A DNA stretch of 27,353 bases, taken from positions 9,745 to 37,097 of IMG/VR virus record IMGVR_UViG_3300001472_000052. One strand, 5' to 3'. Positions 3,749-27,353 of the stretch are shown one piece after another. The translations under genes and the position numbers were made by a program. The notes beneath the pieces were generated by a model. The model had not been told where the DNA came from and made no database searches. It saw nothing but the letters and a program-made list of their open reading frames with translations. Source of the DNA: a virus. The stretch's first letter is position 1. Each line of letters opens with the position of its first letter.

Positions 3749-3822
3749 GGTCCCATAGCTCAACTGGATAGAGCAACAGCCTTCTAAGCTGTAGGTTCAA
3801 GGTTCAAGTCCTTGTGGGATCA
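3749..3822 (+). tRNA. tRNA-Arg (anticodon TCT)
   Basis: A full cloverleaf can be drawn: acceptor GGTCCCA with TGGGATC (one G-U pair), D stem GCTC/GAGC, anticodon stem ACAGC/GCTGT with loop CTTCTAA, T stem CAAGG/CCTTG with loop TTCAAGT, discriminator A at 3822. The anticodon TCT (3783-3785) reads AGA, by far the commonest Arg codon in this window. CCA is not encoded and must be added by the host enzyme. Length is 74 bases. Confidence 0.95.
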
Positions 3823-3826
3823 CTTG

Positions 3827-3900
3827 GGACTCTTAGCTCAGTAGGTTAGAGCAAACCGCTCATAACGGTTAGGTCATAGGTTCAAATCCTATAGGGTCCA
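3827..3900 (+). tRNA. tRNA with anticodon CAT (Met or lysidine-modified Ile)
   Basis: Acceptor GGACTCT pairs with AGGGTCC (one G-U pair), D stem GCTC/GAGC, anticodon stem AACCG/CGGTT with loop CTCATAA (anticodon 3861-3863), T stem ATAGG/CCTAT with loop TTCAAAT, discriminator A at 3900. The first acceptor pair is a normal G-C, so it is not an initiator of the usual bacterial type. It could be elongator Met, or the tRNA-Ile2 whose C34 becomes lysidine and reads ATA; ATA is a very common Ile codon here. CCA is not encoded. Only four bases separate it from the Arg tRNA. Confidence 0.93.
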
Positions 3901-3915
3901 CCTTTAAAAAGAATT

Positions 3916-5507: not shown

Positions 5508-5758
5508 TGGAAGAATATGAATATGACCATGATGGTGTTAAATGCACTGTAGAATATACTTATGATCCAGGAGAACCTGATCAATGGTATGACCAAAACG
5601 GAGATCCAGGAACACCTGGTTACGGACCAACCGTGGATGTAATAAATGTATGGACTGTATTGACAGATAGATTAGGAAATAATGTAAGTGTCAAGATAAA
5701 TGATCTTTTATATACAGAAGATATAGAAGGAGAAATACTACAATATAAAGAAGATTAA
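5504..5758 (+). CDS. Acidic hypothetical protein, 84 aa
   Basis: A small acidic protein rich in Tyr, Asp and Gly. The N-terminal half looks like a beta hairpin (DGVKCTVEYTYDPG), followed by a Gly/Pro turn region (QNGDPGTPGYGP) and a second beta-rich half ending acidic. The start ATGATG overlaps the preceding stop, so translation is probably coupled to the zinc-ribbon protein. An alternative start three bases later would remove only one Met. No family is recognised. Confidence 0.62.
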   Translation: MMEEYEYDHDGVKCTVEYTYDPGEPDQWYDQNGDPGTPGYGPTVDVINVWTVLTDRLGNNVSVKINDLLYTEDIEGEILQYKED

Positions 5759-5760
5759 TT

Positions 5761-5925
5761 ATGAAAAAAAAATTTAATAAGCAAGAGTACATAGAGGACT
5801 TAAAATATAGACAAGGTAGAAGTAAAGATAAAATGGAAAAAATATACAAAGGTTGCTTTGCAGTACTTTGTGCAGGATTTGTTTTATTTATACTTGGGTT
5901 AGTATCCTCTTTATTAAAAATATGA
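5761..5925 (+). CDS. Membrane microprotein, 54 aa
   Basis: The start at ATG 5761 lies two bases after the previous stop. Residues 1-30 are very basic and polar; residues 31-52 form one hydrophobic segment (GCFAVLCAGFVLFILGLV). This gives a single-span protein with a positively charged N-terminal region, which predicts N-in topology. Its TGA overlaps the next ATG at 5922 (ATGA). It is one of several membrane microproteins coupled to nucleic-acid genes in this window. Function is unknown. Confidence 0.6.
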   Translation: MKKKFNKQEYIEDLKYRQGRSKDKMEKIYKGCFAVLCAGFVLFILGLVSSLLKI

Positions 5926-6305
5926 AAGATCAATTATTTGTTCAAGCAACAATCAAGGAAGGTAAGTTACACTTCCCTATAAAAGCCTTTGAAACTAAGT
6001 ATAATAAGTTTCTTAAAGATATGCCTGATGGTGCACGTGTAGAATTATTTATAGGTGTACAAGATGGTAAAGGCAGTAATCCACAGTTAGCAAGAGTACA
6101 TGCTATGATAAGAGAAATAGCCCAAGAACTTGGCTATACATTTGAAGAAACAAAACTACAAGTAAAGCGTAAAGCTGGCCTATGTTTTGTTAAAAATGGT
6201 GTAGAGCACTGTAAATCCTTTGGTAAGTGTGATAAAGATGAACTCAATTTGGCTATACAAGCTTGTATTGAAATAGGAGATTTTAGTGGAATGCAATTAA
6301 GATGA
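5922..6305 (+). CDS. Hypothetical phage protein, 127 aa
   Basis: I choose ATG 5922, which overlaps the microprotein stop, over an upstream in-frame start at 5853 that would lie over the microprotein. The product has a beta-rich N-terminus (about 1-45) and a helical segment in the middle (QLARVHAMIREIAQELGYT), followed by a Lys-rich beta region with three cysteines (residues about 80-120). The general plan is faintly reminiscent of NinB-type recombination proteins, but I cannot show key residues, so this is not an assignment. Its last 9 bases overlap the end of the convergent minus-strand gene 6297-6713. Confidence 0.68.
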   Translation: MKDQLFVQATIKEGKLHFPIKAFETKYNKFLKDMPDGARVELFIGVQDGKGSNPQLARVHAMIREIAQELGYTFEETKLQVKRKAGLCFVKNGVEHCKSFGKCDKDELNLAIQACIEIGDFSGMQLR

Positions 6306-11422: not shown

Positions 11423-11465
11423 AAAGAGTGGGCTCAGTATAATGCTGGGCCCATTTCTTTTTAAT
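11423..11465 (+). terminator. Rho-independent terminator after the SSB-like gene
   Basis: TGGGCTCAG (11429-11437) pairs with CTGGGCCCA (11445-11453) with one G-U pair, around a 7-base loop. The stem can extend outward (AAAGA with TCTTT). It is followed by TTTCTTTTT. This is the best intrinsic terminator in the window. It lies 10 bases after the SSB-like stop and separates early replication genes from the primase unit, and may be leaky. Confidence 0.85.
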
Positions 11466-11476
11466 ATATTTGGATC

Positions 11477-12454
11477 ATGTTCAGTACAAAAAATTTAATA
11501 TTAGAGGAAACAGATGTACCCAGTTATTGGGTATTTCAATATTATTTAGATCTACCTGAACAGCTTACGGGACAAGACATTAAGATTAATTCAATATTTA
11601 ATCCTAATGATAAGACTCCAAGTTTTTGCATATATGTAGATAAATCCATTATGCAGTATAAGTTTAAAGACTTTTCAACAGGTATAGGAGGAAACAAATC
11701 AGACCTAGTTAGGCATATGTTTAATTTAGGTTATCCTCAAGCTACAAGAAGAATCATAGAAGACTATAATAAGTACATTCAGCAGAATGGTAAAGTTCAA
11801 GTTGAATTTGTACCACAAGCTAAGTGGGAGATTGACTTTATAAAATATAGGCCATGGAATAAAAATGATACTGATTTCTGGTTACCGTTTAGAATAGGTA
11901 GAACATTATTAGAAAGATATAATGTAAAACCAATTGAATATTTTAATATGGTAAAAGAAGAAAGTTTAGAAATAGAATCACTTAAAATAGGAAGTAAACA
12001 TTGTTATGGTTACTTTGATAAACACGGTGAAGTATTTAAAATATACCAACCTTATAGTAAAAAACATAAGTTTCATAAAGTCAAGAGCTACATTCAAGGT
12101 ATTGATCAATTAGAATATAAAGAACCATACTTAGTAATTTGTTCATCTCTTAAAGATGCAATGTGTTTAAAAAGTATGGGATATAACTTAGAAGTTATAA
12201 GCCCAGACTCAGAAAATACTATGATTAAACCTCATATCATTGCTAACTTAAAAAAGAAGTTCAAAAATGTAATTACTATATTTGATAATGATGATGCAGG
12301 TAAACACGCAGTTAAAAGATATGCTGAGGCATATGGTATTAATGGCTGTATACCAACTGTATGTAAAGATATATCAGATGCTATGAAAGAAATAGGATTT
12401 GATAAAACACATGCAATGTTAAAACCATTATTAAAACACACATTAAATAAATAA
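11477..12454 (+). CDS. DnaG-type primase with TOPRIM domain
   Basis: The enzyme makes RNA primers for replication. The first 120 residues resemble the zinc-binding domain of DnaG in layout (IFNPNDKTPSFCIYV, then YKFKDFSTGIGG) but have no zinc-binding Cys cluster. The TOPRIM fold follows from about residue 215: LVICSSLKDAM (219-229) occupies the place of the usual EG motif, and IFDNDDAGK (268-276) supplies the DxD metal ligands. The usual catalytic Glu is replaced by Ser, so either the motif is a phage variant or metal binding differs. At 325 residues it is shorter than full DnaG and lacks the helicase-binding domain. It starts after the terminator and is followed by RusA after one base. Confidence 0.82.
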   Translation: MFSTKNLILEETDVPSYWVFQYYLDLPEQLTGQDIKINSIFNPNDKTPSFCIYVDKSIMQYKFKDFSTGIGGNKSDLVRHMFNLGYPQATRRIIEDYNKYIQQNGKVQVEFVPQAKWEIDFIKYRPWNKNDTDFWLPFRIGRTLLERYNVKPIEYFNMVKEESLEIESLKIGSKHCYGYFDKHGEVFKIYQPYSKKHKFHKVKSYIQGIDQLEYKEPYLVICSSLKDAMCLKSMGYNLEVISPDSENTMIKPHIIANLKKKFKNVITIFDNDDAGKHAVKRYAEAYGINGCIPTVCKDISDAMKEIGFDKTHAMLKPLLKHTLNK

Positions 12455-12455
12455 T

Positions 12456-12851
12456 ATGAGAAAAATAAGATGGTGGATACCAGGCAATGTTCCTTCTAGT
12501 AAGAATGGTAGGCGTTGGACAGGTAAATACTTTATAGCTAGTAAAGCAGTTATGAACTATAGAAAAGCAACCAAGGAAATTTATTTAAAGTATACTGAAG
12601 AATTTAAAGAAGAACTAAAGAAGCAAGAGCTTCCTGTTAAAATCTCCTTTCAATTCATAAGAGGTTCAAGACATAAGTTTGATTATATAAATCCTGCTCA
12701 GACAGTGCAAGATGATATGGTTAAGTACGGATGGATTGAAGATGATAATGCAGAGTTTATAATTCCTGCATTTGAACAATATACTTATGATAAAATAAAC
12801 CCCGGTGTATGGATAGAGTTAATTATAAATGATGAAAAAGAAGAATTCTAA
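12456..12851 (+). CDS. rusA: RusA-like Holliday junction resolvase
   Basis: The enzyme cuts four-way DNA junctions made by recombination or fork reversal, as a dimer. At 131 residues it has the usual length. It opens with a beta strand and PSSKNGRR (13-20), the basic loop of the family. The acidic active site is visible as FDYINPAQTVQDDMVKYGWI with Asp76, Asp86 and Asp87, then EDDN with Asp96 and Asp97. Family members use three conserved Asp in this pattern (DxxN, DD, EDD). It follows the primase by one base and overlaps the next small gene by 23 bases. Resolving concatemeric branched DNA before packaging is the likely role. Confidence 0.92.
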   Translation: MRKIRWWIPGNVPSSKNGRRWTGKYFIASKAVMNYRKATKEIYLKYTEEFKEELKKQELPVKISFQFIRGSRHKFDYINPAQTVQDDMVKYGWIEDDNAEFIIPAFEQYTYDKINPGVWIELIINDEKEEF

Positions 12852-13152
12852 AAAGAAAATAATTTCACTTGATGAATTTTTTAGATATAAAGAAATGTTT
12901 GAGGGACTGCCTGAAGATAAAGCTTTAGCATGTGAACTGTATAATAATGCAGGTTATGCTGATAAAGCTATTGTTGATAGACTTATGGCAAAAGCTTTGA
13001 TGTTTGATGACAGAGTAAAGTTTTGTATAGGAATCAAATATGAATTTACTATTGGATCATTTAAAACAACACGGATTTATACATTTATCAAGAAAGAAAA
13101 AGTAAACAAAATATATATGGACATATTAAGAAAATTAAAAGATCATGATTAA
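12829..13152 (+). CDS. Basic hypothetical protein, 107 aa
   Basis: The start region ATGATG lies inside the end of rusA; the second ATG (12832) is equally possible. The N-terminus is very Lys-rich (MMKKKNSKKKIISL), followed by a helical middle with acidic patches and a beta-rich segment (KFCIGIKYEFTIGSFK), then a helical basic end. No motif is recognisable. It overlaps the VWA-metallopeptidase start by 8 bases, so it links the resolvase to the MoxR-VWA block in one coupled transcript. Confidence 0.65.
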   Translation: MMKKKNSKKKIISLDEFFRYKEMFEGLPEDKALACELYNNAGYADKAIVDRLMAKALMFDDRVKFCIGIKYEFTIGSFKTTRIYTFIKKEKVNKIYMDILRKLKDHD

Positions 13153-14308
13153 TATACAAGACCAGGTTGCACGGACAACTAAAAGTTTAATATTTGCTGA
13201 GCCCTTTTACGGGCTCTTTTTAATTGGTATCAATAAGAAATACAGTTTAAGTCTGCCAACAGCAGGTGTAAGTAAAAATAATATTGGTTGTCAATTGACT
13301 ATAAACCCTGAGTTCTATAATGATCTCAGTGAAGACCATAGGTTTGGTCTGATTAAGCATGAACTATTGCATATTGCATTTGGGCATCTTATAACAAGGG
13401 ATAGATATTCTGATAAGAAGTTATTTAATATAGCTGCTGACTTAGAGATCAACCAGTACATACTGGAAAGTAAATTACCTGATGGTGGTTTACTATTATC
13501 AAGCTTCCCTGAATTAAAATTACCTCAGAAAGCAGGTACAGATAAATACTATGAGCTATTACAAGAGGCCCAAGAAGATGGTACATGTCCTTCTTTAGAT
13601 AATCTTATGAATAAAATGGATGGTGAATCACCTTATTGTCACAGTACATGGGATGAGTTTGATGATTTACCTGAAGCAGATAAGAAACTATTGCAAAAGC
13701 AAATTGAGCATCAGTTAAAAGAATCAGCAGAGCAAACAATAAAGAAACAAGGCACAGTGCCGGGAGAGCTTGCTGAATTGATTCATAGACTAATGAATAT
13801 TGAACCAGCAAAATTTGATTGGAAACAATATCTAAGAAGATTTGCAGGTAACTCTAGTATAGTATATACAAAAAAGCTGAGACGTAAGTATAATAAACGT
13901 TATGCAGCAAATCCAGGCCTTAAAATTAAATTTAAAAATCATATACTAGTTGGTGTTGACACAAGTGGTTCTGTAAATAATGATGAGCTAAAGGAATTCT
14001 TTAGTGAGCTTACGCATATGCATAAGACGGGTCATAAGATTACAGTAGCACAATGTGATACAAGATTAAACAGTGTAAAAGAATTTAATCCAAACAAGGA
14101 TTGGGAAATACATGGTCGTGGTGGAACAAGTTTCCAACCAGTAATAGACTATTATAATGAAAAGAAAGGGCTATATACAGCTCTAATATATTTAACAGAT
14201 GGTGAAGCATATACTCCAGAGAACTGCCCTAACAATACGTTATGGGTACATAGTTCTAATTGTAGTATCAATGATGAGTTACCAGGACAGAAAATTCAAC
14301 TTAATTAA
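13145..14308 (+). CDS. Metallopeptidase-like protein with VWA domain (DUF2201 type)
   Basis: A 387-residue protein with two parts. The N-terminal domain (about 10-115) has the zinc-peptidase motif HELLHIAFGH (72-81) and, after it, NIAADLEINQYI, as in DUF2201_N/COG3864 predicted metal-dependent peptidases. A charged middle (about 150-235) follows. The C-terminal VWA domain has the MIDAS motif DTSGS (272-276), then RGGTSF, and finally LTDGEAY. In bacteria such proteins pair with MoxR AAA+ ATPases, and a MoxR-like gene follows 11 bases downstream. Likely role: the metal-binding partner of a remodelling ATPase, perhaps with proteolytic activity. All three MIDAS positions are present. Codons 19-26 contain a terminator-like hairpin. 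Confidence 0.85.
   Translation: MINIQDQVARTTKSLIFAEPFYGLFLIGINKKYSLSLPTAGVSKNNIGCQLTINPEFYNDLSEDHRFGLIKHELLHIAFGHLITRDRYSDKKLFNIAADLEINQYILESKLPDGGLLLSSFPELKLPQKAGTDKYYELLQEAQEDGTCPSLDNLMNKMDGESPYCHSTWDEFDDLPEADKKLLQKQIEHQLKESAEQTIKKQGTVPGELAELIHRLMNIEPAKFDWKQYLRRFAGNSSIVYTKKLRRKYNKRYAANPGLKIKFKNHILVGVDTSGSVNNDELKEFFSELTHMHKTGHKITVAQCDTRLNSVKEFNPNKDWEIHGRGGTSFQPVIDYYNEKKGLYTALIYLTDGEAYTPENCPNNTLWVHSSNCSINDELPGQKIQLN
13199..13221 (+). terminator. Terminator-like hairpin inside the VWA-metallopeptidase gene
   Basis: GAGCCC (13199-13204) pairs perfectly with GGGCTC (13211-13216) around a 6-base loop and is followed by five T (13217-13221). It falls 54 bases after the ATG, inside a part of the protein (PFYGLFLIG) that looks conserved for the family, so the frame is coding. 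It may lower transcription of the MoxR-VWA block, with read-through dependent on translation. Confidence 0.5.
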
Positions 14309-14319
14309 TTAAAAAAAAA

Positions 14320-15588
14320 ATGGCACAAGTAAATTTAAATGTAACAGAACTAAAAGGATTTGTAAATCATATAATAGAAAACAATAGATATTTACAAGAT
14401 AATGGTAAAGGACCAGTATCAGTAGAAGTTGTAGGTGAATCAGGTATAGGTAAAACTTCTACAATTGTTGAGCTGGCTAAGGATAATAATTTAGCTTTTG
14501 TAAAACTTAATTTAGCTCAGATAGAAGAGTTAGGTGACTTAGTAGGATTTCCTGTTAGACAATTCCAGATGTATAAAGAAAAGAAAGTAGCTGTACCTAA
14601 TAACAATGTTAGTATGGTTACAGCAACACAAAGAGCTGCAGGAGCTAGTTTAGCTAATTTAAATCAAACTATTACCAAGAAAGTTGGTCAATGGGTTGAT
14701 GAATTAGCAGTTCAAGAATATCTTAGACAAGGATACAAGATCACTGGTAAGAATAGAATGTCTTATTGTGCACCTGAATGGATTGCTGATGCAAAAGAAG
14801 GTGGTATACTATTATTAGATGACTGGAATCGTGCTGATACAAGATTTATCCAAGCAGTAATGGAATTGATAGATAGACAGTCTTATATATCATGGACATT
14901 ACCAAAGAACTGGCACATAATTTTAACAGCTAACCCAGATAACGGAGACTATATGGTTAACAGTGTAGATAGTGCACAGAAGACCAGATATGTAACAGCT
15001 AATCTTAAGTTTGATGTTAATGTATGGGCTCAATGGGCTGAGGGTGCAGGAATTGATACAAGATGTATTAACTTCCTATTGCTCCATCCAGAGTTAGTAA
15101 CGCAAGAAACTAATGCAAGGTCCATAACAACATTCTTTAACTCTATATCAAGCTTTGAAAAGTTTGAGGATAATCTCAGTATGATTCAAATGATTGGTGA
15201 AGGTAGTGTTGGAGATGCTTTTGCTTCTATGTTCACAACCTTTATTAATAACAAGCTAGATAAGCTGGTAACACCAACTGATTTATTAACTCATGATAAT
15301 GAGGCATATATTCTTGGTGAGCTTAGATCTTGTATAGGTAAAGATGATACATATCGTGCAGATATTGCTTCTACATTAGCTACTAGGCTTGGTAATTACT
15401 CTGTTGTTTATTCACAGGATAATACTATAGGTCAAAAGGTTACTGACAGACTTAAAGCACTATGTACTAAAGATTACTTTACAAATGATCTTAAGTATCT
15501 AATAGTACGTACCATATTTAATGGTAATAAAAAGAAGTTTAATAAATTGATGATGATCCCAGAGATCGTTCAAATGACAATGAAATAA
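14320..15588 (+). CDS. MoxR-like AAA+ ATPase
   Basis: A 422-residue AAA+ protein. Walker A is GESGIGKT (39-46), Walker B is ILLLDDWNRAD with Asp167-Asp168, and sensor 1 is IILTANPD with Asn205. The Walker B with NRA directly after it is typical of the MoxR/dynein-like group (usual form DEINRA). Here the catalytic Glu is Asp, a conservative change that may slow hydrolysis. Residues about 230-422 form the helical lid and an extra C-terminal part. MoxR ATPases act as chaperones with VWA proteins to remodel or load cofactors. The DUF2201-type VWA gene directly upstream and two unknown genes directly downstream form the rest of the block. Confidence 0.85.
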   Translation: MAQVNLNVTELKGFVNHIIENNRYLQDNGKGPVSVEVVGESGIGKTSTIVELAKDNNLAFVKLNLAQIEELGDLVGFPVRQFQMYKEKKVAVPNNNVSMVTATQRAAGASLANLNQTITKKVGQWVDELAVQEYLRQGYKITGKNRMSYCAPEWIADAKEGGILLLDDWNRADTRFIQAVMELIDRQSYISWTLPKNWHIILTANPDNGDYMVNSVDSAQKTRYVTANLKFDVNVWAQWAEGAGIDTRCINFLLLHPELVTQETNARSITTFFNSISSFEKFEDNLSMIQMIGEGSVGDAFASMFTTFINNKLDKLVTPTDLLTHDNEAYILGELRSCIGKDDTYRADIASTLATRLGNYSVVYSQDNTIGQKVTDRLKALCTKDYFTNDLKYLIVRTIFNGNKKKFNKLMMIPEIVQMTMK

Positions 15589-15589
15589 A

Positions 15590-16627
15590 ATGGCAAATAA
15601 ATCAGTATATCAAAATCTTGATCTTGCTGCTTTATCTTACTTTGATTTAGAGAGTGATACCCTTTATGGTGTCCTCTCTAATTCAGGTGAGGTAAGTAAA
15701 GTATTATGTACTCAAGATCAAACAACATATGAAAAAATACACAGTATATTAACTGTCCCTACAGAGGATGACCAAACTTTTAGAACTAAAAAGAAAGCTT
15801 TTGTACTACCAAGGTGTAATGTATCACAAGATAGATTGAAAGCTGCTCTTAAAGAGCATGGTATAACTGTTACAAATGATTATGAACTAGCTGATCTAAT
15901 TATAGGACATGAAGATATTACAACTCACCGTCTAGAAAACGCTGAGAATATACCTTTTACTGTAATGATGAATAAATTGTGGAACTATGAAACAACAAAA
16001 GGTAGATCTACAGCAACGCATTCTAAAGAAATAGCAATATATAATTCTGGCCTAGAAGTTATAATAACTCCTAAGCTTACAGAAAGTATAAGATACTATG
16101 ATTTAGATATAGAAGATAGTTTGTATGATAGCTGGATGTTAACTGGTATGGCTATAAACTTAGCTCATATAATTGATACTACAGATGTTAGTGTTGTTGA
16201 TCCTGAGACAGTGTTACATAGTTCAGCTAGTAAAATGATTCTTGATGAACAACTTCTTAGTGATCTTAAAGTTCAGCTTGCTACATACGCTGATGACAAA
16301 GCTTTAGCTCTTAAAATTGTACCTACAATAGACTATACAAAAAATTATCATCTATTATGGCAATTTGCTCAAGACTGTAGTAGTATTACATATGCAGATA
16401 ATAGAGATAAAGATCTTAAGTACTGGCTAGAAGTATCAAACTTTTTAAAATTTGAAAGAAAGAGTGCACAGGATATGATACTGTGGTTAGATAGTGAAGA
16501 TAAATTATGTAAAACTACTTTTAGATACCTAGAACCTATAGTTAGAAGAGAAATATCTATACACAATAGAGATCTTTATACATTTCAGGTAGCTGTAAAG
16601 AAAGAATATCAAAAATATTTAAAATAA
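15590..16627 (+). CDS. MoxR-VWA-associated unknown protein, paralogue 1
   Basis: A 345-residue soluble protein starting one base after the MoxR gene stop. It shares a layout with the next gene. Both have an N-terminal strand-turn-helix (about 24-60), a beta-alpha-beta unit (about 68-106) that ends in ADLIIG here and ADIAIV in the neighbour at the same residue number, a middle domain, and a helical C-terminal half with a segment DDKALALKIVPTIDY that parallels ENRSLAVEMLANCNIEK. The beta-alpha-beta unit is faintly BRCT-like, which I cannot confirm. No catalytic motif is seen. Likely a partner or substrate adaptor of the MoxR-VWA machine; this is inferred from position. Confidence 0.75.
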   Translation: MANKSVYQNLDLAALSYFDLESDTLYGVLSNSGEVSKVLCTQDQTTYEKIHSILTVPTEDDQTFRTKKKAFVLPRCNVSQDRLKAALKEHGITVTNDYELADLIIGHEDITTHRLENAENIPFTVMMNKLWNYETTKGRSTATHSKEIAIYNSGLEVIITPKLTESIRYYDLDIEDSLYDSWMLTGMAINLAHIIDTTDVSVVDPETVLHSSASKMILDEQLLSDLKVQLATYADDKALALKIVPTIDYTKNYHLLWQFAQDCSSITYADNRDKDLKYWLEVSNFLKFERKSAQDMILWLDSEDKLCKTTFRYLEPIVRREISIHNRDLYTFQVAVKKEYQKYLK

Positions 16628-16631
16628 AATT

Positions 16632-17780
16632 ATGAGAAAATATTATAAAATGCATGTAAATATGCACAAAGACAATTGGGAAAATAATAAACTAAAAGCA
16701 AGTGGAATACAATGGGTAGAGTATGATTCTAAATATTTGTATACTAATAATAATTATCAAGTGTCTAAAAAAGACTTTGAATTATTAGGACTGCCTTCTA
16801 TAGATGAATCAAAAGATGTTGATCTACAAGATGCTAAAATTTATAGATTTCCTAAATTAATTTTACCTAGACAAAAAGTAGATTTATTAAAAGAAAGATA
16901 TAACTGTAAAGTTATAAGAGATATAAGTAAAGCAGACATAGCAATTGTTTCATTAAAACTTTTTGATAGTGTATTAGAAAGAACTTGGACATCATCTGTA
17001 AGTTGTTATGAATGTTATCTTATACTTAAGTATATGAAAGAACTTGATATACTTACTGATGAGGCTTTAAAGGAAATCCAAAACTTTTTACAGGACGCAC
17101 CTAAAGGATGTCAGGTAGATTTTAGGTTGAATAAAGATTGGGGTAGTAGTGATAAATCTCACCTTAAAGCTTATGAAAAGGTAGAAAAGTATATAGAAGA
17201 CAATGAATTAAAAAATATGGATGGTCATAGTGATTGGATATTACCAAAGAAAAACTATGATGCATTTAATAATTTATTAAATGTTAGTTGTCAGCTTGTA
17301 TTAGATACAACTATTGGAAATATAATTGATTCTGAGTTAGCAGTAATAGATAATACAAAGTATAATGAGATAGAAGCAATGGTTACTAGTAGTGATATTG
17401 AAAATAGATCATTAGCTGTAGAAATGCTAGCTAATTGTAATATAGAAAAATCATTTGATGTTGTTTCCGGTTTATATTTCTGGCAATATGATTGGTTTAA
17501 GGCAACTAACAATTGGAACTCAGTAAATGTTAAAGCCCTGCGTGCTAGATTAAAGGAGTATGAAGGTAATCATAATACCACAGGTATATGGTCATTTAAT
17601 TCTTATTTAAAAACGTTAGCTAATGACAGAAAATTAACACGGTTTGCAGTAGATAAAACAAGAGAAAAGTTAATGAATACTTTAATGAAAGACTTAGTAG
17701 GAAATGGATCTCAAGTATTTAAAGTTGACATAAATAATTTGTATATTGCAGATGAAATAGAAAATATGATAGATGAATAG
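16632..17780 (+). CDS. MoxR-VWA-associated unknown protein, paralogue 2
   Basis: A 382-residue protein that appears to be a diverged tandem copy of the preceding gene. Its N-terminal 106 residues line up without a gap over the YQVSKKDFELLGLPS and KADIAIV regions, and its C-terminal helical half carries RSLAVEMLANCNIEKS and then an aromatic stretch (LYFWQYDWFKATNNW). It is about 35 residues longer, mainly in the middle and at the C-terminus. It has more Lys and Asn than its partner. Its stop overlaps the nuclease gene start by 8 bases, so the MoxR-VWA block and the recombination nuclease are probably expressed together. Function is unknown. Confidence 0.75.
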   Translation: MRKYYKMHVNMHKDNWENNKLKASGIQWVEYDSKYLYTNNNYQVSKKDFELLGLPSIDESKDVDLQDAKIYRFPKLILPRQKVDLLKERYNCKVIRDISKADIAIVSLKLFDSVLERTWTSSVSCYECYLILKYMKELDILTDEALKEIQNFLQDAPKGCQVDFRLNKDWGSSDKSHLKAYEKVEKYIEDNELKNMDGHSDWILPKKNYDAFNNLLNVSCQLVLDTTIGNIIDSELAVIDNTKYNEIEAMVTSSDIENRSLAVEMLANCNIEKSFDVVSGLYFWQYDWFKATNNWNSVNVKALRARLKEYEGNHNTTGIWSFNSYLKTLANDRKLTRFAVDKTREKLMNTLMKDLVGNGSQVFKVDINNLYIADEIENMIDE

Positions 17781-18768
17781 AAATTATCAAAAAGAAGAGG
17801 AGTTTTATGCAGACAAAAAGTTCTGCTTTAGCTACTCTTCTTTAAATAAATTATTATTTTCACCGTCCCTGTTCTACAAGGACTATATATTAAAAGACAG
17901 AGAGATAAGAACTGATAAACATTTAGTAGAAGGTAAACTTTTACATTGTTTATTGTTTGAACCTGAAAATTTTGAGAGTAAGTTTAATCTTATGCCTGGT
18001 AAAATCCCAACAGATTCTGTAAAAAAAGTGCTGAAAGATTTAACACTTCATACAGATGCGGAAACACTTGCAGATTGTGATGACTTTGTTATATTAGACT
18101 CTTTAAAGTCAGTTAACTTATATCAGTCATTAAAAGCTGATGAAGCTAGGATAGCAAAAATAGTAACAGCAGACAATGAGTCTTATTGGAAATTCTTAAG
18201 TAATACTAATAAAGATACAATAGATCAGATTACGTTAGATAGATCTACAGAACAGGTTAATATACTCAAGAATAAAGATGAAGTAATGAGTTTGTTTAGT
18301 AATGAGACTACAGACTTTGAATTAGATGATTATGAAACACATGCTGAGAAATATTTAACTGCTAAATTAAAAGGGTTACCTTTTGGTTTACATGGTTATA
18401 TAGATTTCTATAGTGTAGATCATAAAGAAAAGAAGATTGTTATATCAGATTTAAAAACAACTGGCAAGACTATATCAAACTTTAAAGAGTCTGTTGACTT
18501 TTATAACTATTGGTTACAGGCATCTATATATTGTAAGCTTGTTTGGGACTCTATGTCACAAGTAGAGAACCGGGATGATTATACTATAGAGTTTAAATTC
18601 GTTGTAATAGATAAGTATAACCAATCATATGTATTTGATGTATCTCAAGATACATTAAGTGGCTGGGCGGAAGGATTAAGTGGTGTTTTAAATGCTGCAA
18701 ACTATCATTACAAGGAAAGAAACTTTAGTTTACCTTATGAATTCTTAGTAAATAAAGTTACATTATAG
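17773..18768 (+). CDS. PD-(D/E)XK exonuclease (RecE/exonuclease VIII-like)
   Basis: This nuclease family resects double-stranded DNA ends to create single strands for annealing recombination. In 331 residues the family marks appear in order: EGKLLHCLLFEP with His58, then HGYIDFYS with Asp211, then the core ISDLKTT with Asp226 and Lys228, and QASIY with Gln249. This is the RecE-type arrangement (GxxxH, D, D-x-K, Q). The first 50 residues contain YSSLNKLLFSPSLFY, also typical of this group. A single-strand annealing partner is expected nearby; the Sak4-like ATPase with SSB-like protein at 10032-11412 may fill that place. Confidence 0.87.
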   Translation: MNRNYQKEEEFYADKKFCFSYSSLNKLLFSPSLFYKDYILKDREIRTDKHLVEGKLLHCLLFEPENFESKFNLMPGKIPTDSVKKVLKDLTLHTDAETLADCDDFVILDSLKSVNLYQSLKADEARIAKIVTADNESYWKFLSNTNKDTIDQITLDRSTEQVNILKNKDEVMSLFSNETTDFELDDYETHAEKYLTAKLKGLPFGLHGYIDFYSVDHKEKKIVISDLKTTGKTISNFKESVDFYNYWLQASIYCKLVWDSMSQVENRDDYTIEFKFVVIDKYNQSYVFDVSQDTLSGWAEGLSGVLNAANYHYKERNFSLPYEFLVNKVTL

Positions 18769-18769
18769 T

Positions 18770-19357
18770 ATGGGTGTCTATACAGAATATTTTCAAAAGA
18801 GTAAAGTCTTTCTATATCCTTTATTGGAATATAGAAAAGGCTTAACACATGTTCCTAAACAAACTTATTGTGCTTGGGAAGATGTGTACTCTATTGAGGA
18901 TAGAATGTTTTTATGCTTATACAAAACTCCTTTAAATGAAAGCTTTGAGAAGTTTATATTAAAAAATATAATACCTAACAAATACTTTGAAGAACATATA
19001 GTTCTTGGAAAGAACAAACATTTGTTTGTGTTTGACTTTAAACCACTTAAATTTGACTATGATAATTTTATTAGCGGTAAATATTCTAAATATTCTGTTG
19101 ATAGTAAAATTAAAATACTTGATTTCTTTGGTAATGATGATAAAGTTTCTGAATATATACAGGCATTTTTATCACCAGAAAGTTCACATGAAGAGTATGC
19201 TGAGTTTTTAGATGTTGATATACAATCACTAGAGGATGTGTATGAAATATGCACACCCCCAGATCTAAAAAAAGAAACTCTTATAGATAATAATTATCTA
19301 TTAGTTAGGTTATTAGAAGATACTTCAATATCTTTGAACAAAATCAAATCAAAATAA
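18770..19357 (+). CDS. Hypothetical protein, 195 aa
   Basis: Starts one base after the nuclease stop. A soluble protein with aromatic-rich strands and helices; the N-terminus (YFQKSKVFLYPLLEYRKG) and FVFDFKPLKFDYDNF are its most distinctive parts. From about residue 120 it is acidic and helical. No metal or nucleotide-binding motif is seen. It ends two bases before the next unknown gene. Tight coupling to the exonuclease suggests a recombination or replication accessory, without direct evidence. Confidence 0.72.
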   Translation: MGVYTEYFQKSKVFLYPLLEYRKGLTHVPKQTYCAWEDVYSIEDRMFLCLYKTPLNESFEKFILKNIIPNKYFEEHIVLGKNKHLFVFDFKPLKFDYDNFISGKYSKYSVDSKIKILDFFGNDDKVSEYIQAFLSPESSHEEYAEFLDVDIQSLEDVYEICTPPDLKKETLIDNNYLLVRLLEDTSISLNKIKSK

Positions 19358-19359
19358 TT

Positions 19360-19779
19360 ATGGCAACAATAGGACAAAATATGATGTTAGTTAATTCTAG
19401 TTTCAGAAATGCAAAATCCTTTACAATGATACCGGTGAGCTTAGACTCTCCTTATACAGAAGCTATGTTTGATCCTGCATCAGGCATATTAGCAGTAATT
19501 AGCAAAGTTATGAAACAATCATATCACATGGTTCCAAAACTAGATGATAATGGTGACCCTCAAAGATTAAAGACTCCTAATCAACAGACTGGTAAAACAG
19601 TTAAAGAAGAAAGAAGGTTAGTAGATACTTTCTCTGAGTTTTATTTGAGTGACAAAGCTGATATAGAAACTTTTATTCACATGTTTGGTGTCAATGCAAC
19701 TGAGTTTGACTATAGCCAATTCATGCAAACAGATGTTAAAGAAACTAAAGTTTCAAATATAATATTACCTGGTCAATAG
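19360..19779 (+). CDS. Hypothetical protein, 139 aa
   Basis: A soluble protein with a hydrophobic beta-rich first half (FTMIPVSLDSPYTEAMFDP), a Lys/Thr-rich loop near residues 65-85, and an acidic C-terminal third. It is the last gene before a two-hairpin terminator region, so it closes the transcript that runs from the primase to here. The end of the gene lies within the first hairpin (19771-19801), so translation can influence that structure. No family is recognised. Confidence 0.7.
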   Translation: MATIGQNMMLVNSSFRNAKSFTMIPVSLDSPYTEAMFDPASGILAVISKVMKQSYHMVPKLDDNGDPQRLKTPNQQTGKTVKEERRLVDTFSEFYLSDKADIETFIHMFGVNATEFDYSQFMQTDVKETKVSNIILPGQ

Positions 19780-24635: not shown

Positions 24636-27353
24636 TTATATTATTAAGTTATGTTCAGCTAAAGCAGCTATTACTGCATTAAAATAGTATTGACCATTCC
24701 CTGTATCAGATAGTACACCTGGAAAACCATTGGTTGTAAAAGAACCTGGATTACTATATGGGTATACTCTAATTTGTGGGTTTGCTTGATTATAACAAAA
24801 GTTAGTATATAAAGTATTAAAACTGGTAGCGGCATAAGCTGCAGCAGATGCACTAAATCCAGGGCTAGCTCCGTTACCTATTTGAGGTATTTGAGTAGTC
24901 ATACCTACACTTAATGCACCATTATAACCATAAACAGTTGTTAGTTCAGGAGTAGTAGCACTATTAGGTGCCATATTAAAGAATGTACCTCTTAAAGTTA
25001 CAGCACTACTGGTGTTTGTAAATACATTAACAGCTTCTGTAGACTGACCTGTAATATTAGCATTCGTTGGACCTGTTTGTCTAGTAGGTGCCTGATAAGT
25101 ATCATATGATGTATTAGAAGCTTCATCAAAAAATACAAGCATAAATATTTGTGAAGCATCAAAGAACCAATCTGCACCAGCAACATATGGATTAGCATTA
25201 GGACCTACATCTAAAGCACCATTTGCTGCTTGACCCACCGTTCTATTAGCCATAGCTGATAAAGGAGCTTCAGCACCACTATGACACCATATTACATGTG
25301 AGTCAAATCTGTCTGCACCATTTGTTGTATTGTCTGTGTTAAAGTCTGGTGATCCTTGTACTCCTGCTGTTGCATAGAAGTCTTGGAATTTATTTCTTAA
25401 ATTCTGTGCATCTGCATAGTCAGCATCTTTCATAGCCTGAGTTAACTGAAACTTCAACTCTACACTATTACCAACAGTGTGAGGTACATTTCCTGGGTTA
25501 GTTAATACAATTTGAGGGGTAATGGGATTTGTTAAAAAGTTTGTACTAGCAACAGTTGTGTTTGCTGGAATACCTACACCAGTTACTGTCATTCCTGCTC
25601 TCACTACAAACCAAGAGTTAGTACCATGATTACTAGCAATATTCCAATTATTTACATCACCACCATCTATTTGGTTAGGTATATCTACCCTTCTAATTCC
25701 AGAGGTGTTATTGTCCATAGCTAAAGTCATAGTACCAGTTCCTGTATTACTAACATCAGATTCAGCATATACTATAGATTGACTAGAGTTTGATGCTATG
25801 ACACCCAAAATATCATTCATTGAACCTGATACATCAAACCAGAAGTTAAAGAATGTATCTTTGTCTGGTACAAGGCCTGCTATATTACAAACTTGACCTG
25901 TAGAGTTAGCTGGGGTATCGGGATCTGTTACTGTCATTGTTAATGTAAATGCACCACCTGTTGCAGGGTAAGTTCCTGTAAAAGTTCCAGTACAATCATT
26001 ATTATAAGTATTGGTTGCTGTACCACCCCATGTAGTAGCATTACCTGTTGAATTGTCTATTAAAGTAAAACTTGTAGTAAGTTGATTACATGCATGATCT
26101 GGATCACTCACTGTATAATTATATGTATAAACATCACCAGCAACAAGACTACTTGTATCTGGACAAGAACTAGTCCATATAGGAGGTTCAGCTACAGCTA
26201 CAACAATAATTGTTACAGTTATTGGATCAGTTATACAATAACCATCTGTTGCTGTATATGTAAATTGATCAGTACCAAAGTAGTTTGCGTTAGGAGTATA
26301 AGTATATGCACCTGTAGTTGTATTAAACGCTAAAGTACCATTACTTACATTAGTTACAATAGCATAAGTAAGACCATAACCACCATAACCGTCATCTACA
26401 ACTATTGTTTGACTTGATATAGCTACATCTTCATTCGTTGTAAGAGTTTGATTTGTTCCTACTGGACAATTATTTTTAGAATATAACTTACAACATGAGT
26501 CCCAGAATAATACATTGTTTGGTTGACCCGGAGCTTGATAGTTTATATACTTTAATTTAAGTGACTCTCCAAAAAGAAGAGTGTCTGTATCTTTATAACC
26601 ATTTGACCCTGAAGATCCTGTTAACCATGAAACTCTATTTGACCATGTTTCACCTACAACACCCCATCCATCAGGAAATCTAAGAGCATCTTGTGCTAAA
26701 GGAGTTCCTGTTTTTACATTTTCAGCAATAACTTCTCCTTGTTGACCATCTGTTAAACTACTCATACCAGCTATACGCATAAATGTTACAGTTGTATCAT
26801 CTAGTGGTACATATGCATTAAGATAAGTTTGTGTCCAATCTGCAGTTGTACTCATTGTAAGAGTATCAAACCCTACAGGAGGAACAATTGTAGCAACATC
26901 TCTATATTTAACTTCATCTGCATTAGCTGCGTCTCTAACAAGTACTTGGGTAAGTGTGTCATCTTGTGCTACATTCTCTAAGAATAATTCTTTTTTTTGT
27001 GCTAGCTGACCATCATTAGTAATTTTAGTAGCAGGAGTACTAGAGTTTCCATCTTGAATAAGTAAAGAACAACCTAATGTATTTGAGTCAGGTGTCCATA
27101 AAGGAATTCTATATACAGCACAAACTTCACCTACAATTGCAGCTGGATTATCTTGCCAAGCAAAAGTAGTTCCATCAGAAATAAGTATTTGATCAACTGT
27201 TCCTATAGGTAGTTCTACCTTATAGTTAGTTGGATCTCCTTGCCATAGTGCTCCATATGTTAATGCTTCAACCACATCATCATCTTGCCACTTTACTCTA
27301 CCATCTGCTAAACCTACAAGCACTTTATTTAATCCACCTAATGCTCCAAGTGA
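24636..27353 (-). CDS. Tail-fibre/adhesin-like protein with Ig-like and VWA domains (5' partial)
   Basis: The frame is open to the right edge, so the N-terminus is missing; at least 905 residues are present. The first visible part carries tail-fibre-like text (QILISDGTTFAWQD). At about 26190-26450 lies a tandem-95/Big_9-type domain (TTNEDVAISS, then YTYTPNANYFGTDQFTYTA), followed by a cadherin/PKD-like domain (YNYTVSDPDHACNQL). A VWA domain begins with the MIDAS motif DVSGSM at about 25825-25842 and continues, with an insertion, to FMLVFFDEASN near 25120. The C-terminus is Asn/Gly/Tyr-rich. Together this fits a host-surface-binding virion protein. VWA adhesins bind ligands through a metal ion. 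The ligand is unknown. Confidence 0.82.
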   Translation of the reverse strand, partial: SLGALGGLNKVLVGLADGRVKWQDDDVVEALTYGALWQGDPTNYKVELPIGTVDQILISDGTTFAWQDNPAAIVGEVCAVYRIPLWTPDSNTLGCSLLIQDGNSSTPATKITNDGQLAQKKELFLENVAQDDTLTQVLVRDAANADEVKYRDVATIVPPVGFDTLTMSTTADWTQTYLNAYVPLDDTTVTFMRIAGMSSLTDGQQGEVIAENVKTGTPLAQDALRFPDGWGVVGETWSNRVSWLTGSSGSNGYKDTDTLLFGESLKLKYINYQAPGQPNNVLFWDSCCKLYSKNNCPVGTNQTLTTNEDVAISSQTIVVDDGYGGYGLTYAIVTNVSNGTLAFNTTTGAYTYTPNANYFGTDQFTYTATDGYCITDPITVTIIVVAVAEPPIWTSSCPDTSSLVAGDVYTYNYTVSDPDHACNQLTTSFTLIDNSTGNATTWGGTATNTYNNDCTGTFTGTYPATGGAFTLTMTVTDPDTPANSTGQVCNIAGLVPDKDTFFNFWFDVSGSMNDILGVIASNSSQSIVYAESDVSNTGTGTMTLAMDNNTSGIRRVDIPNQIDGGDVNNWNIASNHGTNSWFVVRAGMTVTGVGIPANTTVASTNFLTNPITPQIVLTNPGNVPHTVGNSVELKFQLTQAMKDADYADAQNLRNKFQDFYATAGVQGSPDFNTDNTTNGADRFDSHVIWCHSGAEAPLSAMANRTVGQAANGALDVGPNANPYVAGADWFFDASQIFMLVFFDEASNTSYDTYQAPTRQTGPTNANITGQSTEAVNVFTNTSSAVTLRGTFFNMAPNSATTPELTTVYGYNGALSVGMTTQIPQIGNGASPGFSASAAAYAATSFNTLYTNFCYNQANPQIRVYPYSNPGSFTTNGFPGVLSDTGNGQYYFNAVIAALAEHNLII

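Follow-up and report, generated by a model that had tools for sequence, protein, structure and literature searches.

A MoxR–VWA gene pair with diverged tandem partners, predicted to be BRCT-like, in the replication and recombination block of uncultured marine phages

MoxR–VWA pairs are established chaperones (PMC7159879), and in group 2.2 jumbo phages a MoxR-(metallopeptidase-vWA) pair has been described, with a proposed role in virion assembly (PMC7824862). Hundreds of phage genomes, that of N4 included, carry such a pair; we found no demonstrated function for it in the literature. Here we analyze one such pair in a 27,353-nucleotide (nt) stretch of phage DNA (positions 9,745 to 37,097 of IMG/VR record IMGVR_UViG_3300001472_000052, a viral record of 37.1 kb), hereafter the window, where it is preceded by a small gene and followed by two adjacent genes that we call A and B. 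A first-pass annotation, made from the letters alone, had suggested that the phage MoxR–VWA machine, with a duplicated partner, was an undescribed system. This does not hold for the pair itself, because it is carried by N4 (gp24/gp25), many Schitoviridae, cyanophage S-TIM5, AD45, Moorella phage MTATph1, and jumbo phages. What we found beyond the pair is that A and B are ancient duplicates with a predicted BRCT-like fold and possibly HEAT-like helices, features that the first pass had not recognized. We favor, tentatively and with confidence short of even, the reading that the four genes and the small gene encode a single protein-remodelling machine, which A and B would guide to replication or recombination complexes. 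The four open reading frames (ORFs) called in the first-pass annotation are intact and lie where it had placed them. With the small gene, the layout is (lengths in amino acids, aa):

12829 to 13152, plus strand: small gene, 107 aa, by hhalign a stand-alone copy of the A/B helical unit
13145 to 14308, plus strand: metallopeptidase–VWA gene, with HELLH at residues 72-76, NIAADLEIN at 95-103, DTSGS at 272-276, T328, and D352
14320 to 15588, plus strand: MoxR-like AAA_5 ATPase gene, with Walker A GESGIGKT, Walker B LLLDDWNRAD, and sensor-1 LTANP
15590 to 16627, plus strand: partner A, 345 aa, with a predicted BRCT-like core at residues ~64-107 and ~185-215, an insert between them, and helical repeats
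16632 to 17780, plus strand: partner B, 382 aa, with an N-terminal beta pair and a predicted BRCT-like domain at residues 64-107 and 206-236, interrupted by an insert of ~95 aa
Partner B, residues 240-345: helices that look HEAT/ARM-like in the AlphaFold2 (AF2) model

Judging from profile comparisons, A and B are true, old, diverged tandem paralogues. The first-pass annotation had suggested two diverged partners from a shared layout, and had set similarity of the two genes, beforehand, as the point on which the idea could fall. When the comparison was run it returned homology, with hhalign P = 2.1e-7 over 330 columns (nearly full length) and, in an independent run, P = 5.8e-6 over 269 columns, versus a next-best P of at least 0.008 for unrelated neighbor families of the same phages. 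The alignments comprised 75 and 93 divergent, cross-checked rows, and one B row was removed from the A alignment before the final comparison. With shallow alignments (Neff 1.7) there was no significance; it appeared after divergent relatives were added. The motifs ADLIIG and ADIAIV do fall at residues 101-106 of A and B, as had been reported, and A101 and D102 are conserved within each family. Searches of the A and B sequences against solved structures gave nothing useful. The small gene, whose kinship had been overlooked, matches the helical unit of B (hhalign P = 3.6e-6) and of A (P = 8e-5), and the registers of the three comparisons are mutually consistent (i.e., transitive). By these alignments, the small gene is a third, partial paralogue of the A/B helical unit.

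For B, a BRCT-like fold is supported by a confident AF2 model (predicted local distance difference test score, pLDDT, of 88.4). The model has the BRCT topology (beta1-alpha1-beta2-beta3-alpha2-beta4-alpha3), and the ~95-residue insert falls between strand 3 and helix 2. VIA-align superposes it on the PARP1 BRCT domain (2le0) with Z 8.2 and a root-mean-square deviation of 3.5 over 79 aligned residues, and almost every one of the 40 best rows is a BRCT entry. A Z of 8 alone would be borderline; the call weighs more because the list is so uniform and because A gives independent sequence hints. In A of one relative, Pfam BRCT (PF00533) matches residues ~66-119 at E 5e-4 (one genome) and 17.4 bits versus a gathering cutoff of 21.3. 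Among the A members, 9 of 75 match this family (best E 0.0083), making it the joint commonest Pfam match, tied with the helical Death effector domain (also nine members). When a LigA BRCT profile was compared with 18 phage families, its best match was to residues 69-106 of A (P = 0.002; next best 0.006). For A, the BRCT fold is thus weakly indicated, by homology to B and a faint sequence signal at the equivalent position, and its AF2 model (pLDDT 51) was left out of the claim. The C-terminal helices of A and B may be HEAT/ARM-like, not decisively, their Z of about 4-6 against ARM/HEAT proteins lying inside the noise range of helical folds. One-off weak Pfam matches in A and B were treated as chance. 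The BFVD hits for B (ctz6O13 and ctYsL76; a crAss-like virus, and a podovirus hit twice) were set aside, given low TM-scores and unreadable neighborhoods.

The remaining two proteins were correctly recognized in the first pass. The product of 13145-14308, called a DUF2201-type metallopeptidase/VWA protein with HELLH and DTSGS, carries both motifs and matches Pfam DUF2201_N (PF13203; 4e-19, 69.6 bits vs. a gathering cutoff of 23.2) and the DUF2201 VWA-like domain (PF09967; 2e-15, 57.2 bits vs. 26.4). HExxH, the NIAADxEIN segment, and a complete MIDAS (DxSxS, T, D) are conserved across ~380 members, and since HExxH and MIDAS are invariant in so many relatives, both metal sites are strongly constrained. 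The protein may have peptidase activity and cut its targets. The product of 14320-15588, called a MoxR-like AAA+ ATPase with LLLDDWNRAD, has that motif and matches AAA_5 (1e-4, 22.5 bits, just over the gathering cutoff of 22) and PHROG ATPase 1297 (5e-34); the best solved relative of its profile is midasin (E 1e-6). Walker A and sensor 1 are present in 399/399 members, and in 395 of these Walker B reads LLLDD or LILDD, with Asp in place of the catalytic Glu (residue D168), whereas the ATPases of N4, SP-076, and S-TIM5 have DE and retain the Glu. We take the catalytic Glu as a mark of full activity, not of membership in the MoxR-like AAA_5 group. Omega values lie between 0.02 and 0.08 for MoxR and between 0.05 and 0.15 for the VWA gene.

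In hundreds of GenBank phage records, DUF2201 metallopeptidase-VWA proteins (N4 gp25 among them) are labeled "HNH endonuclease" (PHROG 1314), a label that the HExxH and MIDAS motifs and the Pfam matches suggest is wrong. One relative of the window (L068, 6000-6724) has a VWA frame broken just upstream of the MIDAS region, either naturally or by assembly error. In others (L081, at 5665-6093, L024, L208, L271, and L286), a conserved extra gene of ~130 aa (MGRYYxGDIEGKF...ECSFTAEL) lies between VWA and MoxR.

MoxR is encoded on more than 500 metagenomic viral contig stretches, and the phages that carry it form a large marine group in which we found no cultured member. MoxR identity inside the group exceeds ~77%, versus ~22-34% over part of the protein for the nearest others. 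Genomes are ~114-118 kb, the size at which the longest records group. Each of 17 long records has a single A and a single B, and in one of them gene B is divided between the two ends of the contig, as would be seen in a circular assembly. Whether loci were retrieved with A, with B, or with MoxR, the order rusA–small–VWA–MoxR–A–B–RecE held in all loci read. The proposal that the four genes would be found together in related phages is borne out: VWA, MoxR, A, and B are all present, in that order, on every contig with space for them; the small gene escaped detection in a few loci. The tightest junction is that between MoxR and A, with a spacing of 1 nt in 76/80 loci, and this is the best sign of coupling. 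That the host is a member of the Bacteroidota, as the first-pass annotation supposed, was not established; group members (L336, L337, and L338) occur in metagenome-assembled genomes labeled Campylobacteraceae and Pseudomonadales.

The location in a recombination operon, also suggested in the first pass, is supported, as a replication and recombination operon, by the neighboring genes and by their conserved order. The packed run listed below is preceded by genes for a DnaB helicase and a Sak4-like annealing protein and followed by a DNA polymerase gene.

11477 to 19779: packed gene run comprising primase, RusA-like, 107-aa gene, metallopeptidase–VWA, MoxR-like, A, B, RecE-like, and two unknowns
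12456 to 12851, plus strand: RusA-like resolvase gene, conserved upstream neighbor (PHROG 1682, 8e-21)
17773 to 18768, plus strand: RecE/exonuclease VIII-like PD-(D/E)XK nuclease gene, conserved downstream neighbor (PF12705, 1e-7; PHROG 412, 6e-14)
11426 to 11456, plus strand: terminator-like hairpin 5' of the primase gene (pattern scan only)

The gene overlaps noted earlier are real, and measure 23 nt (rusA and small gene), 8 nt (small gene and VWA), and 8 nt (B and RecE-like gene). The hairpin is a possible 5' limit of the operon, and a sigma-70 promoter scan gave no matches above chance. Other features of the window include a very strongly constrained 139-aa gene near the polymerase gene (19360-19779; omega 0 to 0.14), side-by-side tRNA genes for Arg (tct) and Met (cat) at 3749-3902, and an 895-aa ORF without a PHROG match at the window end (24636-27323, minus strand).

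In the machine that we favor, MoxR would assemble into an ATP-driven ring, on which the metallopeptidase-VWA would dock, holding targets via its MIDAS metal site and perhaps cleaving them. A and B, as adaptors or dedicated substrates, would direct the ring to phage replication or recombination complexes on DNA, which it would then dismantle or mature. The remodelling of MIDAS-gripped complexes by the ring is inferred from midasin and other MoxR–VWA systems (PMC7159879). We likewise infer that the proteins form a complex and that A and B act as adaptors, and we suggest replication and recombination complexes as targets because of the gene neighborhood. In favor of the reading are the homology of A, B, and the small gene, the BRCT-like prediction, the invariant metal sites, the unbroken order with its 1-nt MoxR–A junction, the single A and B per long record, and purifying selection on all genes. 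A more specific version, in which BRCT-like/HEAT-like adaptors would supply the MoxR-VWA-metallopeptidase ring with DNA ends or DNA-bound complexes that they recognize, making it a midasin-like replisome or recombination machine, seems to us somewhat unlikely.

Several points weigh against the remodelling machine. The Asp that replaces the catalytic Glu in Walker B makes the ATPase rate of this lineage's MoxR uncertain, and other phages keep MoxR-VWA without a detected A/B homologue. The BRCT score of A is under the Pfam gathering cutoff (hence "BRCT-like", not a Pfam member), the LigA BRCT profile did not match B, and BRCT is not among the Pfam matches listed for 76 B members. Finally, the surrounding replication genes also keep their order across the lineage, and with the whole replication block syntenic, synteny alone is not specific proof that the four genes act together. 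It is from this last point that the idea of A and B as separate DNA-metabolism proteins, merely adjoining MoxR-VWA, draws its force. We consider it improbable, given that the 1-nt MoxR-A junction is so widely retained and that the MoxR-VWA and A/B sets were never found apart in the loci read. A metal- or cofactor-insertion chaperone for a phage metalloenzyme, like classical MoxR/CoxD/NorQ, would agree with the classical MoxR roles (PMC7159879). Beside the block, however, we recognized no conserved metalloenzyme gene apart from nucleases, and the BRCT-like partners would go unexplained; this explanation is very improbable.

Virion assembly, in which MoxR-VWA and A/B would act late in infection to fold or trim structural or ejection proteins, is unlikely in our judgment, although it is the role suggested for this protein pair in jumbo phages and has a MoxR-VWA precedent in archaeal virus tail assembly (PMC7824862). 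HExxH is intact, as that idea would have it, but in every locus read the block belongs to the replication/recombination cluster and has no structural genes beside it. BRCT-like domains, moreover, are typical of DNA-metabolism proteins. Patterns of sequence change bear on a further alternative, host takeover or counter-defence, in which A, B, and the small protein would be adaptors that evolve faster and hand host or defence proteins over to MoxR-VWA, to be disassembled or cleaved. The fastest change is indeed seen in B and the small gene (mean column identity is 29-45% for B vs. 88-91% for VWA and MoxR). In close pairs such as L007/L019, L015/L020, and L003/L033, A often shows silent-site divergence exceeding the median of its neighbors more than twofold, and A (15590-16627) has a divergent patch around residues 265-305. 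Allele swapping of A is possible. Together these patterns hint, tentatively, at variable partners; the pairs are few and not independent. On the other side, all genes are under purifying selection (omega is well below 1 in all pairs, with a maximum of 0.52 at low divergence), the genes are never lost or moved, and the conserved core of B is its BRCT-like and helical part; we regard counter-defence as distinctly unlikely. For the remodelling machine, a pair locked between recombination genes with BRCT-like partners is a concrete, testable clue to the target and, if the reading is true, would extend BRCT-type recognition to a phage AAA+ remodelling system.

Among described systems, N4 gp24 (MoxR-like ATPase) and gp25 (DUF2201 metallopeptidase-VWA) are likewise adjacent, with HExxH and DxSxS present. 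They differ in that the ATPase precedes the VWA gene, Walker B is the canonical DE, and a dCTP deaminase comes next; no A/B homologue was detected in N4 with the B profile, which also found none in crAss001, phi38:1, phi14:2, and five others. The N4 and Schitoviridae relatives of the pair are only about 22-30% identical. In Alteromonas phage AD45-P1 (gp051-gp052), VWA precedes MoxR, as in the window, but a 669-aa protein follows and no A/B homologue was detected. By tblastn, there were no A/B homologues in 50,697 GenBank phages. Regarding VMAP/ternary MoxR-vWA conflict systems, neighboring genes gave no Pfam match to a VMAP component or effector, the VMAP profile itself not having been searched. 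Midasin (Rea1) is an AAA_5 ring with a MIDAS domain that strips proteins from assembling complexes; it differs in being one giant chain with MIDAS in cis, in lacking a metallopeptidase, and in its ribosome targets. The BRCT domains of LigA, PARP1, and RFC1 share the topology of the B model, and the A pattern KAFVLPxC..DRxKxxLxxxxxxV resembles KTFVLTGT..RDEAKxxLxxLGAKV of LigA, the differences being the ~95-residue insert of B, fusion to helical repeats, and a score under the Pfam cutoff. The jumbo phage systems have the same co-chaperone domain architecture and pairing, and no BRCT-like/HEAT-like partners have been reported for them (PMC7824862); nor did we find, in the open-licence literature, a report combining MoxR, VWA, and BRCT in phages. 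The first-pass view of a new system must therefore be narrowed: the MoxR–VWA pair was already known, and what is new is the predicted BRCT-like partner pair and its fixed replication and recombination setting.

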